A stretch of DNA of 64,000 nucleotides, taken from NCBI RefSeq assembly GCF_011301715.1, contig NZ_CP049870.1:434001-498000 (forward strand). Reading direction: 5' to 3'. The notes under the pieces were generated by a model. It saw only the letters and a list, made by a program, of their open reading frames with translations. It was not told the origin of the DNA and searched no databases. The stretch's first letter is position 1. The number at the start of each line of letters is the position of its first letter. The stretch comes from Sphingomonas sp. HDW15A. Lineage in GTDB: Bacteria > Pseudomonadota > Alphaproteobacteria > Sphingomonadales > Sphingomonadaceae. The position numbers and the translations under genes were made by a program. This document shows, piece after piece, positions 54,899 to 62,400 of the stretch.

Positions 54899-55666
54899 AT
54901 GACGGATCACGCCGAACTCACGAATATATTTGCCGACTTGTCGAGGCTAGCCCGCCAGAGCGTTCAGGCGGTCAGTGCAAGAGTGACCTTCGAGGACAAA
55001 GGGGCGGGTTCGTTCGACCCGGTCACCGCGCTGGACCGCGACATCGAGAAGCTGATGCGCGACTACCTGCTCGCGAAACATCCCGACCATGGCGTGTGGG
55101 GCGAAGAGTTTGGCTGGTCGAACGAAGGATCACCAATCCACTGGAGCATCGACCCGATCGATGGAACGCGCGCGTTTATCTGCGGCCTGCCGAGCTGGTG
55201 CGTGCTGGTCGGCTATTTGCGCGAGGGACGGCATCAGGCGGGGATGATCGACTGCCCCTCCCTCGGCGAGTTGCTGGTCGCGGTCGGCGGAACGACGCTT
55301 CGCAACGGTGAGCCTGTCGTGGCTAGCAATTGCATGTCGCTCGCGACAGCCCGGCTGGCGACGACTGATCCCTGCCTCTTCGACAAAGACGAGGCGGCGT
55401 CGTTCTCCGCCGTGCGCCAGCGGACTTTGGTCACGCGCTATGGCCTGGACGCGCTCGCCTACGCGCGGGTTGCGACCGGCGATCTCGACCTCGTCATCGA
55501 AAACAAGCTGCAGCGGCACGACCTCGACGCGCTCGTCCCGGTCGTCCGCGGCGCCGGCGGTCATGTCGGTGACTGGAGTGGGGGCGAGGACTGGGACGTG
55601 GGGCGGATTGTCGCAGCCGCCAGCCGAGCCCTTTACGACGAGGCGGTAGCCGTCCTCTCGCGGTGA
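54899..55666 (+). CDS. hisN: histidinol-phosphatase (inositol monophosphatase fold)
   Basis: HisN dephosphorylates histidinol phosphate to histidinol. The 255-residue protein has the IMPase metal sites: GVWGEEFGW and SIDPIDGTRAFICGLP, followed by a late RHDLDALVPVVRGAGG motif. Its location converging on the his operon supports the HolPase role rather than inositol phosphate hydrolysis. It overlaps the 3' end of hisIE by 34 bases. Confidence 0.85.
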   Translation: MTDHAELTNIFADLSRLARQSVQAVSARVTFEDKGAGSFDPVTALDRDIEKLMRDYLLAKHPDHGVWGEEFGWSNEGSPIHWSIDPIDGTRAFICGLPSWCVLVGYLREGRHQAGMIDCPSLGELLVAVGGTTLRNGEPVVASNCMSLATARLATTDPCLFDKDEAASFSAVRQRTLVTRYGLDALAYARVATGDLDLVIENKLQRHDLDALVPVVRGAGGHVGDWSGGEDWDVGRIVAAASRALYDEAVAVLSR

Positions 55667-56250
55667 CGGCGCTCGAGTTCCTCGCTCACCTCGCGCCAGT
55701 CGATCCCGCGTTCCGAGAGGAGAAGCGTCAGGTGGAATGCGAGATCGGCCGCTTCGCTGACAAGCTCGTCGCGGTCCCCGCTCACTGCTGCAAGGGCGAC
55801 CTCGACACCTTCCTCGCCGACCTTCTGCGCGATTCGACTCCGCCCTTCGGCTGCCAGACGCGAGGTATAGCTTTCGCTTGAGCCTGCGGCGGCGCGCGCC
55901 CGCACCACCCGTTCGAGCCCGCCGGGGAAGAAGGGCGGAGAGGAGCCGAAGCAACTGGGCGCGCCGGTGTGGCAGGTCGGTCCCTCGGGATCGGCGCGGA
56001 TTAGCAGGGCATCATTATCGCAGTCGGCGGCGACGGAGCGCAGGCGCAGGCGGTTGCCGCTGGTCTCGCCCTTCACCCATAGACGGCTCTTCGAGCGGCT
56101 AAGGAAGGTGACGAAGCCCGCTTCGATGGTCGCCTTCAGTGCGGCGCGATCCATATAGCCGAGCATTCGCACCATGCCTTCCGCATCCTGGACGATAGCC
56201 GGAAGCAGGCCATCGCTCTTGCTCCAGTCGAGGCTGTCGAGATCGATCAC
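55633..56250 (-). CDS. hisIE: bifunctional phosphoribosyl-AMP cyclohydrolase / phosphoribosyl-ATP diphosphatase
   Basis: HisI domain first (residues ~1-105: [36 protein letters not shown] with metal cysteines), then the HisE domain (~110-205: [29 protein letters not shown]). The two act on steps 2 and 3. Fused HisIE is common. The start overlaps the hisF stop by four bases. Confidence 0.94.
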
Positions 56251-57014
56251 CGGCGCACCTCCAGTCCTTCCATTTCAAGGGCCGTCTTGAGAGCAGGAAT
56301 GGCGATCCGGCCATCGTGGAAGACGGATGCGGCGAGCGCACCGCTGGCGCCGGCGCGGAACGCATCGACGAAGTGCTCGGGCTTTCCGGCGCCGCCGGAG
56401 ATGACAATTGGCACGTCGACCGCGGCCGCCAGCGCCCGAAGCTGGTCGAGGTCGTAACCCTCGCGCACCCCGTCGCGGTCCATGCAGTTAAGCACTATTT
56501 CTCCTGCGCCCAGCGCGACTGCCTCTCTGGCCCAGTCGAGCGTTTCGCGGCCGCTGTCGCGTGTCGCCTCCGGCCGGCCAGTGAATTGCTTGACGCGAAG
56601 GCGGCCGTCCGTGCCGCGAAAGCTGTCGATACCCAGAACCACACATTGGCGGCCGAATGCGCCGGCGAGTTCGGCGATGAGCCTCGGACGACGCAGGGCA
56701 GGAGAGTTGATGCTGACCTTGTCGGCGCCGGCACCAAGCACTTCGCGGGCATCGTCGACGCTGGAGATTCCGCCTGCAACGCTGAAGGGAATGTCGAGAA
56801 CCGTGGCGATCCGCCCGACCCAACGCACGTCGAGTCGGCGGCCGTCGGCGCTCGCAGTGATGTCGTAAAACACCAATTCATCGGCGCCGGAATCGCGGTA
56901 GCGAGCGGCAAACTCGACCACGTCGCCGACATCGCGGTGGTCGCGAAAGCGGACTCCCTTCACGACCCGGCCGTCGGCAACATCGAGGCAGGGGATGATC
57001 CTAACAGTCGGCAT
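56247..57014 (-). CDS. hisF: imidazole glycerol phosphate synthase cyclase subunit
   Basis: HisF with HisH makes IGP and AICAR. The 255-residue (beta/alpha)8 barrel has the catalytic Asp in [15 protein letters not shown] (D11 type) and the second in [10 protein letters not shown] (D130 type), plus GGISSVDDA and [10 protein letters not shown] phosphate loops. It overlaps hisA by 14 bases. Confidence 0.95.
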
Positions 57015-57728
57015 GGATCACGCCTTCTGCCACGGTAAAGCGACCTTCCCAGATGGCCTTGCCGACGATTGCGCGGGCAGCGCCGCAAGCGCGCAGAGCG
57101 TCAAGATCGGCAAGACCGGCGACTCCGCCCGAAGCCTGCAGTTCGATCGCGGGATATCGCGAGGCTATGACCTGCATCAGCGCGAGGTTCGGGCCGGTCA
57201 TCATTCCGTCGCGGGCAATGTCGGTGACGAGCAGGTGGCGGACCGCCGGGAAGCGGGCGAGGACGGAATCGAGCGTCTTGCCACTGTCAGTGGCCCAGCC
57301 GTGCGCCGCGACGCGCGGCGTTCCGTCGTCGAGCCGGACATCGAGCGCCAGCACCAGCCGGTCGGCGCCGAAGCGGTCGAGGAGCGCATCGAAGGTGTCG
57401 GGATCGTCGAGCGCGAGGCTGCCGAGAACGACCCGGGCGACTCCGGAATCGAGCATCAGCGCGACCTGGGCCGCATTGCGGAACCCCCAGCGACTTGGAC
57501 GGCCAGTGGAGCGCTTGCAGCGAGCGTTCGGAACAGGTCGTGCTGGCGTGGCTCTCGGGCCCGGGCGCCGTCAAGATCGACCACATGCGCCTCGCTTGCG
57601 CCGCCTTCCGCGAAACGGATGAGCGCGGCCATGGGATCGGAGTCGTAAGTCGTCGCGCGGGCGAAATCGCCCTGCGCGAGGCGCACGCAGCGGCCGCCGG
57701 CGAGATCGATTGCGGGGAGGAGAATCAT
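57001..57728 (-). CDS. hisA: ProFAR isomerase, frameshift in a G run
   Basis: HisA isomerises ProFAR. The N-terminal part ([20 protein letters not shown], catalytic Asp near 8) is in one frame. The frame breaks at the CCCCC run 57484-57488, where one more base joins [20 protein letters not shown]. The rest ([36 protein letters not shown]) is intact. Repaired length is about 242 residues. It overlaps hisF by 14 bases and the end of hisH by four. Confidence 0.9.
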
Positions 57729-58315
57729 GCCGCGAGGAACGCCTTGAGGAAGTTCGCACCCGCTTGCGACGAACGTTCGGGGTGGAATTGTGCGCCCCAG
57801 CGCGAACCGTCGCGAAGTGCGGCCGGAAAGCTGCGCTGCCCATGGCGCGCGCGCGCGGCGGTTGCCGGACCGTCGGCACAAACGAAGCCGTGCGCGAAAT
57901 AGAGCTGGTCGCCGTTGGCAAGGCCGAGACCGGGCGCGACATCGCGCAGCGCGCACCAACCCATGTTGGGAACGGGCACACCGGGCGCGGAGGCGAGCGC
58001 GGAGACCGTGCCGGGCAGAAGGCCGAGAAGCGCAGTGCCGCCATCTTCCTCGCTGCGCTCGAAGAGCAATTGCATGCCGAGGCAGATGCCGAGCGTCGGC
58101 CTCGTCCGCTCGGCAACGACCCAGTCGAGGCCGGTCTCGCGAAGGCGGGACATGGCGCTTGCGGCCGCACCCACTCCGGGCAGGACGAGGCGATCGGCCT
58201 CCTCCGCCTCGCGCGTAGAATGGGTCAGCACGGGAGTGGCACCGAGCCGCTCGAACGCGCGTGCGACAGAGCGCGTGTTGCCGTAGCCGAGGTCGAGGAT
58301 GGCGAGGGCGGTCAC
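57725..58315 (-). CDS. hisH: imidazole glycerol phosphate synthase glutaminase subunit
   Basis: HisH supplies ammonia from glutamine to HisF. The 196-residue protein has the triad motifs LGICLGMQLLFE (nucleophile Cys) and the terminal QFHPERSSQAG with His and Glu. The opening LAILDLGYGNTRSVARAFE is conserved. It overlaps hisCB by four bases and hisA by four. Confidence 0.95.
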   Translation of the reverse strand: MTALAILDLGYGNTRSVARAFERLGATPVLTHSTREAEEADRLVLPGVGAAASAMSRLRETGLDWVVAERTRPTLGICLGMQLLFERSEEDGGTALLGLLPGTVSALASAPGVPVPNMGWCALRDVAPGLGLANGDQLYFAHGFVCADGPATAARARHGQRSFPAALRDGSRWGAQFHPERSSQAGANFLKAFLAA

Positions 58316-59934
58316 AGCACGCCCTTGGTCGAGGGCAGGCCGTTGCCGGCGGCGGCGACGGCCTGGCGGAGCGCGCGGCCGAAGGCCTTGAATGCGGCCT
58401 CGACCTTGTGATGATCGTTGTCGCCGGCAACGCGGACGTGAATCGCCGCGCCCATGGAATCCGCTAGGCTGCGGAAAACGTGTGGCACCATCTGCGTGGG
58501 AAGATCGCCGACGCGCTCGGACAGGAACGCGCCCTCGAAGCGCGCGAACGGGCGGCCGGAAAGATCAATCAGCACCTGGCCTTCGGCCTCGTCCATCGGC
58601 AATGCGAACCCAAAGCGGCCGATGCCGCGCTTATCGCCGAGCGCCTGGCGGATGCCGGTGCCGAGCGCGATTGCGACATCCTCGACGCTGTGGTGGGCAT
58701 CGACATGCGTGTCGCCCTCGCACTGCAGGTTGAGCGCGAAGCCGCCGTGCGCGGCGACCTGGTCGATCATGTGATCGTAGAAGGCGATTCCGGTGGAGAT
58801 CGTGCGCGGCCCGTCTCGGTCGAGGTCGAGGCTGAGGGCGAGGCGAGTTTCGCGCGTGTCGCGGACCAGGTCGGAGCGGCGTGCGGGCGCCGCATCGGCG
58901 ACTCCGAAGACGGCGAGTAGCGCGGCATTCTCCCGTGCCGTTCCGACAGTGACCCGGACTCCGCCTGGCGCGGCATTGGGGCGAAAGCGCACCCGCACTC
59001 CGGCGGCCGCAAGCCGGCGGGCGAGGGCGGCGGGATCTTCGACTTGGAGGAACAGGAAATTGCCCCCAGCGCGGACGGTTGCGATTTCGCAAACATCGTC
59101 CAGAACTCCGGCGAGCCGTTGCCGCTCTGACAGGATTTCGCCGATCCGCTGCTTGTGGATCGGCATTCGCTCCGGTCCGAGCGCCGCAAGCGCGGCTGCG
59201 ATGCTTGGCGCGGGCAGCGGATAGGGTGGCGACACGCGCGAGAGTAGACCGATAAGCTCCGGCGAACCGATAGCGCAGCCGATGCGCGCTCCGGCGATGC
59301 CAAAAGCCTTGGAAAGGGTGCGCAGGATAACGAGATTGCCGCCGGCCTCGCAGGCAAGGCCTTGGCCGTCTTCGAACTCCATATAGGCTTCGTCTGCGAC
59401 GACGATCGTGTCGGGAAGCTCGCGCGCAATGCGGCGGACGTCGTCAGCATCGACGCAGGTTCCGGTCGGGTTGTTGGGGGTGCAAAGAAACACGAGCTTG
59501 GGCTTCGCCGGGGTCATCTGTGCAAGGACGGCTTCGGCGTCGAAGCGGAAGTCTTCGCCCAACCGGGCGCTGACCACGCCTGCCCCCTGAACGCGGGCGA
59601 ACTGGGCGTAGGCCGAGAAGGTCGGCTCAACTATCCCTATCGAATCCTCGCCGGCTTCGCAGAAGGTGCGAATCAACAGGTCGATCGCATCGTCGCTGCC
59701 GCGCGTGACCCACAGGCGGTCGGGAGCGACACCGTACAGGTCGCTCATTCGGTTGCGAAGCGCGGCGGGCTGCGGTTCCGGATAACGGTTGATCTCCGGC
59801 TGCCCGTCGACCAACGCGGCATAGGGGCTTTCGTTAGCGTCGAGCCGGATCGTCCCCGCAAGCGGTGCGCCGGCGATGTCGACAGGTGGCAAGTCGCGGA
59901 CCGCGGCCCGGGCGAGGCGGAGTGCGATGCTCAC
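58312..59934 (-). CDS. HisC-HisB fusion: histidinol-phosphate aminotransferase plus imidazoleglycerol-phosphate dehydratase
   Basis: The 540-residue protein carries two full enzymes. Residues 1 to about 345 are a PLP aminotransferase of the HisC type: RLDANESPY, PNNPTGT, ADEAYMEFE and the PLP-lysine in TLSKAFGIAG (K209). A short linker around 345-355 follows. The HisB domain then runs to the end: HDMI-type STGIAFYDHMIDQ, DAHHSVEDV (412-420), FEGAFLSERVG, and the second metal motif GDNDHHKVEAAFKA (504-517). Neither domain seems truncated. It overlaps hisD and hisH by four bases each. Separate genes are usual; a fusion of this order is not one I can name from memory as standard. Confidence 0.9.
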   Translation of the reverse strand: MSIALRLARAAVRDLPPVDIAGAPLAGTIRLDANESPYAALVDGQPEINRYPEPQPAALRNRMSDLYGVAPDRLWVTRGSDDAIDLLIRTFCEAGEDSIGIVEPTFSAYAQFARVQGAGVVSARLGEDFRFDAEAVLAQMTPAKPKLVFLCTPNNPTGTCVDADDVRRIARELPDTIVVADEAYMEFEDGQGLACEAGGNLVILRTLSKAFGIAGARIGCAIGSPELIGLLSRVSPPYPLPAPSIAAALAALGPERMPIHKQRIGEILSERQRLAGVLDDVCEIATVRAGGNFLFLQVEDPAALARRLAAAGVRVRFRPNAAPGGVRVTVGTARENAALLAVFGVADAAPARRSDLVRDTRETRLALSLDLDRDGPRTISTGIAFYDHMIDQVAAHGGFALNLQCEGDTHVDAHHSVEDVAIALGTGIRQALGDKRGIGRFGFALPMDEAEGQVLIDLSGRPFARFEGAFLSERVGDLPTQMVPHVFRSLADSMGAAIHVRVAGDNDHHKVEAAFKAFGRALRQAVAAAGNGLPSTKGVL

Positions 59935-61195
59935 GCCGTCGCCCTCGCTTCGGCGGCGCGAGCGTGCGCCTCGAGGCCCTCGAGTCTTGCGAGTGCTGCG
60001 GCCGGGCCAGCTAGCTCGGCGGCAGTGCGCTGCGTGATGCGCTGGACGGTCATTGCCTTCATGAACGTCATGGTCGCCACTCCGCCGGTGAAGCGGGCGG
60101 CGCCGTCGGTCGGCAAGACGTGGCTCGACCCGGCGAGATAATCACCGAAGCTCTCGGCGGCGCAGCGGCCAACGAACACAGCGCCGGCATTGCGTACGTC
60201 GCCCACCCGTGCCGCCGCTTCCTCACAGGCGAGCGAAAGATGTTCAGGGGCATAAGAATTGGCGATGGCAATCGCCTCGTCGAGGTCGCCGCAGCGGATC
60301 GCCCGCATGGGCGCGAAGTCGCCATTGAGCGCTTGCGCTTGCTTCTCGACCGCGCCCGCGACCGCCTCGATCAGTGCGGGGTCGGGAGTCACCAGTATCA
60401 CCTGCGCCTCGCGATCGTGCTCGGCCTGGCTAAGCAAGTCGGACGCGATAGTCGCTGCATCGCCGGCCGCACCCGAAACGATCAACAACTCGCTCGGGCC
60501 GGCCGGAAGGTCGATACCCGGGCCGCCGCTGTCGGAAGCGACCATCGCCTTGGCTGCCGAGACCCAGGCATTGCCCGGTCCGCAAATCCGGTTGACCGCA
60601 GGGATTTCGCCTGCGCCAAATGCCATCGCGGCGATCGCCTGAGCTCCGCCAAGCGACCAGATGGAGTCGATCCCGCAAATGTCGGCGACAAGGGCGATGG
60701 CCGGATCGAGCCCACCGTCCGGGCGCGGCGGGGTCGTGACCACCAGCTTTTCGACCCCGGCGACCCGTGCCGGTATTGCCAGCATCATCAGCGTCGAGAA
60801 CAACGGCGCCCGCCCGCCCGGGACATAGAGCCCGGCGCGGTCGAGCGGCCGCCAGACTTTCGACACGCTCAATCCCGGAGTGGTAAGCACTTCCACCGCA
60901 TCGGGCCGTGTGCGGCGATGGAACGTTTCAATGTGCCTTGCTGCGAGCCGCATCGCGTCCTGTGCCTCGGACGGCAAAATGGTGCGTGCCTGCGAAGCGA
61001 ACGGGGCGACGTCGAGCATGACCGGCGGCGCTCCGTCGATCTCGGTGGCAATGCGGACCAGGGCATCCCAGCCGCCATCGCGAACGTCGTCGAGCGTTCG
61101 TCGGACGCCGGCGAGGATGGCCGCGTCGGCGCGCCCCCCGGCCTGGCAAGCGCGGCCTTGCGGATCGCCATGTCGCTCCAGTCGAACCGGATCAC
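59931..61195 (-). CDS. hisD: histidinol dehydrogenase, frameshift in a G run
   Basis: HisD oxidises histidinol to histidine in two NAD steps. The first residues (GTG 61195: MIRFDWSDMAIRKAALARPGG) overlap the hisG stop by four bases (GTGA). The frame breaks at the CCCCCC run 61134-61139; adding one base gives GGRADAAILAGVRRTLDDV and joins MLDVAPFASQARTI and the rest. Conserved pieces follow: YVPGGRAPLFSTLMM, GAGEIPAVNRICGPGN, GPSELLIV, SQAEHD and the zinc site GCAAE...SHVLPT. The repaired length is about 421 residues. Confidence 0.9.
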
Positions 61196-62085
61196 AGCAT
61201 CATCTTTTCGATTGGCATGACGAGGATCGCCGATGCGCCGGCGCCTTTGAGGCGCTCGAGAGTCTCCCAGAACACGGATTCCTGGCACACGGCCTGGACC
61301 GCGACATGGCCCGGCCGACCGACCAGGGGCACGACGGTCGGCGCCTCGGCCCCGGGAAGGATTGCGCTGATGGCGCCCAATGCATCTTCCGGCGCATTGA
61401 GGACGATATATTTGCTTTCCTGAGTGGCGATGACGCCGTCGATACGCTGCATGAGGGCGTCGGCCTTTTCGAGATGCGCGGCGTCGAGTGGCTTCAGCGA
61501 GCGTACCAGGACGGCCTCGCTCTCGAACACGTCGGCGACTGCAGCCAGGCCGTTGGCATCCAAAGTCGCGCCTGTGGACACGAGGTCGCAGATGAAGCGC
61601 GCGATGCCGAGGCGAGGCGCAAGCTCGACGGCGCCGCGCATGGTGACGATTTCGGCGCGGATGCCGTTGGATTCGAGGAAGCGGCGCAGGAGATTGGGAT
61701 AGCTGGTGGCGATTCGCTGACCCTCCAGCATCTTGAGCTGGAAGAAGGTCAGGACGTCGGGCGCCGCGATCTTGAGGCTGCAACGGCCGAAGCCGAGGCG
61801 GGCCACTTCCTTGATGCGCCGCTCCGGCTGGCCGAGCGCATATTCCTCAAGCACGTTCTGGCCAACAATCCCGAGCTCGCAAACGCCGTCGGCGACGAAC
61901 GTCGGGATGTCGTCGTCGCGGACCAGCATGAGGTCGAGCGGGAAATTGTCGGCGCGGGCCGAGAGGGACGACTTGCCGCCGCGCGACAGGCGAATGCCCG
62001 CGCCGCGTAGCAGCGCGAGCGAATCTTCGCTCAATCGCCCGGACTTCTGGATCGCGAGGTGGAGGCGATTGCGGTCGGGGCTCAT
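61192..62085 (-). CDS. hisG: ATP phosphoribosyltransferase, long form
   Basis: HisG condenses ATP with PRPP, the committed step. At 297 residues it is the long form with a C-terminal ACT-like domain, which gives histidine feedback and acts without HisZ. Motifs: LHLAIQKSGRLSEDSLAL, GVCELGIVGQNVLEE and LDANGLAAVADVFESEAVLV. It overlaps yerC and hisD by four bases each. Confidence 0.94.
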   Translation of the reverse strand: MSPDRNRLHLAIQKSGRLSEDSLALLRGAGIRLSRGGKSSLSARADNFPLDLMLVRDDDIPTFVADGVCELGIVGQNVLEEYALGQPERRIKEVARLGFGRCSLKIAAPDVLTFFQLKMLEGQRIATSYPNLLRRFLESNGIRAEIVTMRGAVELAPRLGIARFICDLVSTGATLDANGLAAVADVFESEAVLVRSLKPLDAAHLEKADALMQRIDGVIATQESKYIVLNAPEDALGAISAILPGAEAPTVVPLVGRPGHVAVQAVCQESVFWETLERLKGAGASAILVMPIEKMML

Positions 62086-62384
62086 GCTGCGCCCCGAAGC
62101 CGGTCGAGGACGCGGCGGTAACCGCCATTGACTTCCTGCTTGAGGAAGCGGGCGACGCGAACCACCGTTGTCGTGCTGACCCCGGTCGCGTCGTGAATCT
62201 CGCGATAGGTCATCGCCCCCTGATCGAGCAGTCGAGCGACATACCAGCGCTCAGCCAATGCGTGGATCTCGGCAGGCGTGCAGAGGTCGGCAAGGAAGGC
62301 GCGGGCTTCCTCGGCGGTGTCGATCGCGGCGATCGCGACCGCAAGATCGTCGGCGAGGGCCGTGCGTGCATCGCTGAGCGACAA
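62082..62384 (-). CDS. yerC: YerC/YecD family TrpR-related regulator
   Basis: The 100-residue protein is TrpR-like: FLADLCTPAEIHALAERWYVARLL then the helix-turn-helix SYREIHDATGVSTTTVVRVARFL and NGGYRRVLDRL. TTG 62384 has GGGAG six bases upstream and is preferred over TTG 62390. YerC family genes head his operons in several bacteria; direct repeats lie just upstream. It may repress in response to histidine or another ligand, but that is inference. Confidence 0.85.
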   Translation of the reverse strand: MSLSDARTALADDLAVAIAAIDTAEEARAFLADLCTPAEIHALAERWYVARLLDQGAMTYREIHDATGVSTTTVVRVARFLKQEVNGGYRRVLDRLRGAA

Positions 62385-62400
62385 TTTCAACTCCCGATCT

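Follow-up and report, generated by a model that had tools for sequence, protein, structure and literature searches.

Histidine biosynthesis is a textbook case of gene fusion shaping pathways. In step 6, HisB converts imidazoleglycerol phosphate (IGP) to imidazole-acetol phosphate, which is consumed by HisC, a dimer, in step 7. One of the closest systems described is HisNB, known as HisB in E. coli, in which a HAD histidinol-phosphatase is joined to the N-terminus of IGP dehydratase (IGPD). Other fusions of histidine-pathway enzymes are HisIE, HIS4 (hisIE-hisD) and HIS7/hisHF. In the available part of PMC10978614, IGPD is a 24-mer with octahedral symmetry and an outward-facing N-terminal sheet. 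Among the fused his genes listed in the accessible portions of PMC1963479, PMC10138114 and PMC9413887, hisC does not appear; the last of these gives hisF-I-E, hisZ-G and hisJ-B. No description of a HisC-HisB fusion was found in the open-licence literature on histidine biosynthesis. We report such a fusion from a sphingomonad, and consider it very probable that it is a genuine bifunctional histidine enzyme, derived most likely from a gamma-type operon after loss of the HAD domain.

The window, a stretch of 64,000 nucleotides from the genome of Sphingomonas sp. HDW15A (a single contig of 2.34 Mb), carries the hisCB gene at 58312..59934 on the minus strand, where all features below also lie unless stated otherwise. 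The frame has a GTG start at 59934, a stop at 58312-58314 and no internal stops, and encodes 540 aa. Its ends overlap the hisD stop upstream and the hisH start downstream by 4 bases each. The HisC (histidinol-phosphate aminotransferase) half lies at 58906..59934 (residues 1-343); it passes the TIGR01141 cut-off narrowly (residues 25-343, 278.4 bits versus 276.55), and the PDB HisC chain 7szp_A aligns to residues 6-339. A linker, GVADAAPA (58882..58905, residues 344-351), contains no start codon and leads into the HisB (IGPD) half at 58315..58881 (residues 352-540). This half matches the full length of PF00475 (residues 381-522, profile positions 1-144 of 144, 194.1 bits, above cut-off) and passes NF002111 (residues 351-540, 238.6 bits, cut-off 231). 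Solved HisC and IGPD chains in the PDB each align separately to their own half of the protein. The HisNB model NF003937 scored 276.5 against a cut-off of 443, with a match confined to residues 351-540, and a HAD phosphatase domain is absent before the IGPD domain. A first-pass annotation of the window had described one uninterrupted 540-residue frame holding a complete HisC and then a complete HisB, situated in the his operon. Frame reading, the TIGR01141, PF00475 and NF002111 matches and the neighboring his genes all bear this out, and they add the strand, which that annotation did not give.

Both halves have the residues expected of working enzymes. Lys209 (codon 59308..59310), which from HisC family knowledge we take to be the PLP Schiff-base lysine expected in RTLSKAFGIAGAR, is K in 120 of 121 sphingomonad-type proteins, with a gap in the remaining one. 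Neither Lys209 nor Asn155, Asp181, Tyr184, Arg217 and Arg327, presumably the other active-site residues of the HisC half, vary across 41 aligned rows of fusions. The same alignment shows His388, His414, His415, Glu418, His508, His509 and Glu512 of the HisB half to be present and invariant, and the HHSVED, DNDHHKVE and DHM positions, whose His and Glu residues we assume to bind metal, are conserved in 121/121 sphingomonad-type proteins. The fused HisC is the sole HisC above the family cut-off in the window's genome, as it is within G000, G103, G190 and G114. Among 15 sphingomonad pairs, most of them with dS near or above 1, dN/dS was 0.14-0.36 for the HisC half and 0.08-0.30 for the HisB half. 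Judged from the sequence, the 540-residue protein would have both activities in vivo.

The operon runs in the order HisR/YerC-type regulator, hisG, hisD, hisCB, hisH, hisA, hisF and hisIE. Its first gene (62082..62390) encodes a YerC/HisR-type regulator of the TrpR family (TIGR02531, 65.8 bits, cut-off 42.2). This regulator occupies the same spot in nine of nine loci (L004-L012) and in Xanthomonas (L046), and gave no match in L013, L014 and L018; a scan of the window for the published proteobacterial HisR motif, tolerating up to 2 mismatches, gave 0 matches. The hisG gene (61192..62085) is of the long form with a C-terminal domain (PF01634, PF08029). From the first ATG of its frame, hisD spans 59931..61019 (PF00815); homology reaches upstream to ~61106, and the genome search returned a stop-free TIGR00069 match at 1-393. 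Downstream of the fusion are hisH (57725..58315, TIGR01855 above cut-off), the C-terminal part of hisA (57001..57456, TIGR00007 from position 91, with the N-terminal part upstream in another frame), hisF (56247..57014, TIGR00735 above cut-off) and the hisI-hisE fusion hisIE (55633..56250, NF002747 above cut-off). A phosphatase gene of the inositol-monophosphatase type, resembling hisN, lies on the plus strand at 54899..55666, convergent with the operon. The hisA gene extends across two frames (57001-57730) and hisD changes frame near its start (61000-61200), which may be single-base errors of the assembly or real lesions; the first-pass annotation, which suspected frameshifts elsewhere, was fair in this respect.

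These frame changes in hisA and hisD mean that indels may occur in this region, and in principle an assembly or base-calling error, either an indel or a stop codon gone missing, could have merged adjacent genes. The first-pass annotation held such an artefact to be less likely at the linker, which it placed at about residues 345-355 and described as free of long homopolymers, than at the other frameshifts. The genus agrees: among 71 genomes surveyed, 47 have the full-length fusion without stops, one has it broken and 23 lack HisB. The case that the first-pass annotation named as refuting, genomes of this lineage in which a stop at the linker splits off hisB with a start of its own, was looked for, and a separate HisB turned up in 0 of the 71. 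For 30 of the 47 fused genes, direct frame reading confirmed a single frame with both domains. The broken case (G201, 86% complete) has the fusion in pieces, with the break inside HisC and the junction within one piece, and one other genome (G242) has an extra, interrupted second copy. Database relatives point the same way. For residues 320-540, the alignments of the best 120 of 7718 lie at 72-91%, and 114 of these 120 are 539-547 aa in length; for one of the six shorter ones (P0041), the precomputed Pfam list shows the IGPD domain alone. The isolates Sphingomonas edaphi and S. rhizophila, the latter with a complete chromosome, have the same architecture. With 47/71 uninterrupted genus genomes, isolates and more than 100 database proteins in agreement, we count the artefact as refuted and its probability as practically nil.

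HisD matches were found in 48 of the 71 genomes, and the 23 without HisB (G112, G120 and G154 among them) are the same ones that lack HisD. Of 14 control genomes the HisD search matched 13, Bacillus subtilis not being one of them, which shows that it can overlook a gene. Completeness is 90% or more in 16 of the 23, and from their sequences the histidine pathway itself seems to be missing in 23/71 genomes, an apparent loss of histidine synthesis. Wherever HisD occurs, the fusion is kept throughout the genus.

A single frame may still give two proteins, through internal initiation or cleavage of the linker, in which case there would be no working fusion enzyme. The variable linker sequences, placed between complete domains, would suit this reading, as would in-frame ATG, GTG or TTG codons near the linker in 23 of the 30 genes scanned (of the 47 fused genus genes), though their position is not conserved. 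Against it, a start-like codon with a Shine-Dalgarno-like motif upstream was seen in 0 of the 30, the window gene has no start-like codon in the stretch examined, and linker length is steady at 8-11 residues in eight sphingomonad rows. We therefore rejected an internal start at the linker and regard two separate products as very improbable. More broadly, the linker measures 7-18 residues in 30 of 33 fusion rows and is longer in L014, L165 and P0256.

Outside the genus the fusion is sparsely distributed. At E 1e-70 it was found in 16 of 397 genomes of the family (one at a contig edge), representing 5/96 genera, and it was present in 15 of 196 genomes of the order sample. Class and phylum samples comprised 398 and 385 genomes at E 1e-60 and 1e-55, thresholds at which more distant fusions are missed. 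Other Alphaproteobacteria with fusions of both domains are G612, G878, G974, G1049, G1120, G971, G1053, G966 and G894. Among the best 80 of 317 relatives in named species genomes, there were 11 single-frame fusions, 3 pairs of separate adjoining genes and 66 other loci, mostly gammaproteobacterial by their titles, with HisB in a different frame from HisC or HisC out of reach; the HAD domain itself was checked in two of them, L018 and L046. Loci L015-L017 of Firmicutes and L149, which at first seemed fused, are separate adjacent genes.

Fusions also occur in Bacteroidota. Among 120 Ekhidna-type proteins listed, all 95 of more than 480 aa have the HisC lysine, and G253 gave the only match spanning both domains among the matches listed for 148 genomes of its order at E 1e-50. 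The available text of PMC8305728 assigns HAD-HisB to all its Bacteroidetes and mentions a short unexplained N-terminal stretch in the HisB of Balneolota. A fusion with a linker of ~50 residues in a Balneolaceae MAG (L014) may relate to that stretch. Another fusion with a ~50-residue linker, L165 from genome G624 of the class and phylum samples, is of unrelated origin, with its HisB half outside the HAD-HisB group.

Phylogenetic trees of the two halves were used to place the fusion. In the HisB tree (76 rows), 27 HAD-HisB and 36 HisC-HisB rows form a group of 63 (99/93) with standalone HisB outside, so the contrast with E. coli HisB, which the first-pass annotation had correctly noted to be fused to a HAD domain instead, extends further: the HisB half groups with the HAD-HisB type. 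Alphaproteobacterial fusions form one clade of 27 rows (96/80) inside this group, and Bacteroidota fusions are scattered among Bacteroidota HAD-HisB. The fusion label requires at least 7 changes on this tree, 5 of them forced by well-supported branches. A single clade of all fusions (35 rows, excluding L165 and L209) was rejected (p 6e-7), as was a single clade of all 27 HAD-HisB rows (p 3.8e-5); one clade of gammaproteobacterial HAD-HisB was not rejected (p 0.52). The HisC tree agrees in outline, with the alphaproteobacterial fusions falling within the gamma-type HisC group. Its clade tests, from which L165 was left out and L144, L145, L146, P0256, L017 and L241 were dropped, also rejected one clade of all fusions. 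A single origin of HisC-HisB is thus rejected in both trees; on this sequence evidence, the fusion is of more than one origin. One clade of alphaproteobacterial fusions was likewise rejected in the HisC tree (p 0.013): three HisC genes that stand separate (L211-L213) branch among the fusion rows, and this placement may reflect a fission, a transfer or two fusion events.

The alphaproteobacterial fusion appears to come from a gammaproteobacterial hisC-hisNB operon, which its two halves and its gene order match apart from the HAD domain. In Xanthomonas (L046) the genes follow the same order, with a HAD domain separating HisC from HisB, and two other Sphingomonadaceae loci (L099, L101) have the order hisB-H-A-F. 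Most likely an operon of the gamma type, hisR-G-D-C-[N-B]-H-A-F-[IE], reached alphaproteobacteria by horizontal transfer, and the HAD phosphatase domain (N) between HisC and HisB was then lost, probably by deletion, leaving HisC joined to the N-terminus of HisB. Of 16 unfused hisC-hisNB pairs examined, 7 (L267, L269, L271, L273, L275, L276 and L277) have both genes in one phase, separated by just one stop codon and so one readthrough from a triple fusion; few steps therefore separate the unfused and fused states. A HisC-HAD-HisB triple fusion itself was sought in 18 fetched stretches, 16 of them with all three domains in reach, and was found in one frame in 0 of the 16.

Alternatively, hisC may have fused to a standalone hisB that never had a HAD domain, with gammaproteobacteria and Bacteroidota each adding HAD to HisB on their own. 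Sphingomonads yielded no HAD-N relic, and gammaproteobacterial HAD-HisB can form one clade, as this reading would have it. On the other hand, homologous HAD domains would have had to insert at one and the same position at least twice, and the Bacteroidota genome G253, which combines a HisC-HisB fusion with an isolated HAD domain of the HAD-HisB type, makes a swap look possible. We consider an origin that bypassed HAD unlikely. Because a single gammaproteobacterial HAD-HisB clade is not rejected, the preference for HAD loss in alphaproteobacteria over a later gain in gammaproteobacteria depends on the Bacteroidota HAD-HisB rows and on the rooting.

In G253 the lone HAD HisB-N gene (L262, G253:C1:491600-493600) lies at 0.49 Mb and the fusion at 2.78 Mb of the same contig. 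Since this domain shares 44-55% identity with the N-terminal domains from eight HAD-HisB proteins, the old HAD-HisB fusion of this lineage was probably split and HisB gained a new partner; three alphaproteobacterial HAD hits reached 24-34% by the same comparison. Among 16 genomes searched with TIGR01261, G253 passed the cut-off, eight gave weak matches (56-79 bits) and seven, the window's genome included, gave none (G000, G103, G190, G114, G016, G612 and G878).

With no HAD domain before HisB, step 8 would fall to another phosphatase, for which the HisN-like gene beside the operon end is the probable candidate. HisN has been reported from Sphingomonadales in the available part of PMC5516325. 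The candidate in the window scored 215.8 bits with TIGR02067, its best family match though below the cut-off of 275.15. All 16 genomes have a HisN-type match (best scores of 212-293 bits in 15 alphaproteobacteria). The cut-off is exceeded in 5/16, and since the same loose threshold also gives matches in 14 of 14 control genomes, these matches lend weak support to HisN as the step-8 enzyme. The gene is convergent at the operon end in seven of eight sphingomonad loci; the eighth locus ends before that position.

A different fate of the HisC half is seen in 120 proteins (P0242-P0361) assigned to a Brevundimonas type from their source names and from P0256, which is named Brevundimonas and is 97% identical to L144 over HisB columns. 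They are 467-481 aa long in 113 cases and shorter in 7. In the alignment, the PLP lysine is lost in 120/120 (Leu in 114, Met in 5, Arg in 1), as is the active-site tyrosine, and at the catalytic asparagine position 119 of the proteins show a gap and one has Ala. The IGPD residues checked are retained in 113-120 of the 120. A separate HisC above cut-off with an intact TFSK motif is present in all five Brevundimonas-type genomes. In ten pairs among L144-L148, dN/dS was 0.14-0.47 for the dead HisC half and 0.08-0.16 for the HisB half, and was higher for the former in 10/10. Selection on the dead half thus appears relaxed, yet with dN/dS well under 1 it still looks constrained. Alternatively, this appearance may come from high dS in some pairs, or from a mere need not to misfold. 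The protein L209 (G852) retains only ~210 residues ahead of its HisB, and no HisC match could be detected in them. It was rejected as a HisC-HisB fusion, with no HisC match at E 1e-8 in the N-terminal part, and was kept in the HisB tree. Read by eye, the stretch may be a further decayed HisC remnant.

The geometry of IGPD suggests a physical picture of the fusion. Because the N-terminal sheet faces outward, a domain attached to the IGPD N-terminus should sit outside the shell, as the HAD domain of HisNB must. Given an IGPD 24-mer and a dimeric HisC, the expected particle is an IGPD shell with 24 HisC domains outside, which could pair into twelve dimers, the number of two-fold axes. The HisB half would dehydrate IGP, and the HisC half of the same chain would transaminate the product to histidinol phosphate; any channelling between them is, like the particle itself, a prediction. 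The fusion may instead be neutral, maintained solely because it equalizes expression, with catalysis no better for it. The Brevundimonas-type proteins lost the HisC catalytic residues yet kept the attachment, and in three alphaproteobacteria related HisC genes stand apart from HisB, as neutrality would allow; it accords less well with the recurrent origin of a fusion joining neighboring steps and with its persistence in every part of the genus that has HisD. Neutrality is a serious contender, though we lean somewhat against it. We are evenly divided on a broader proposal: that the HisB N-terminus acts as a swappable docking point for histidine enzymes, at which HAD gave way to HisC several times, and that the Brevundimonas-type HisC (more decayed in G852) is a dead pseudo-enzyme that the IGPD particle retains for a role other than catalysis, for instance in assembly, stability or regulation.

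Replacement of a non-consecutive fusion (steps 6 and 8) by a consecutive one (steps 6 and 7) makes the choice between channelling, dosage and assembly testable. A comparison set is at hand in the live fusion of the window's lineage, the dead attached HisC of the Brevundimonas type, the decayed remnant in G852 and the separate Bacteroidota fusions. For annotation, source names of relatives indicate that both domains are already recognised automatically. Some of these names say histidinol-phosphatase although no phosphatase domain is listed, and Brevundimonas entries named HisB hide the pseudo-HisC.

Among the closest known systems, HisNB shares a homologous IGPD half, an N-terminal partner from the same pathway and the same slot in a compact operon. 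It differs in that its partner is the HAD phosphatase of step 8, a domain absent here, whereas the partner in the window is HisC, the enzyme of the next step. The standalone HisB of other Sphingomonadaceae should catalyze the same reaction and is also followed by hisH, hisA and hisF (L099, L101), but it is unfused and is 38-50% identical to the query in the rows listed, compared with 48-61% (best segment) for gamma-type L018-L083. HisIE, which is present in the window's own operon, HIS4 and HIS7/hisHF are also fusions of histidine-pathway enzymes, but they join other enzymes. The Brevundimonas-type HisB belongs to the same alphaproteobacterial fusion clade of the HisB tree and has an intact HisB half; its HisC half, unlike that of the window's protein, is shortened and has lost the active-site lysine, asparagine and tyrosine, with a separate HisC encoded in 5/5 genomes.
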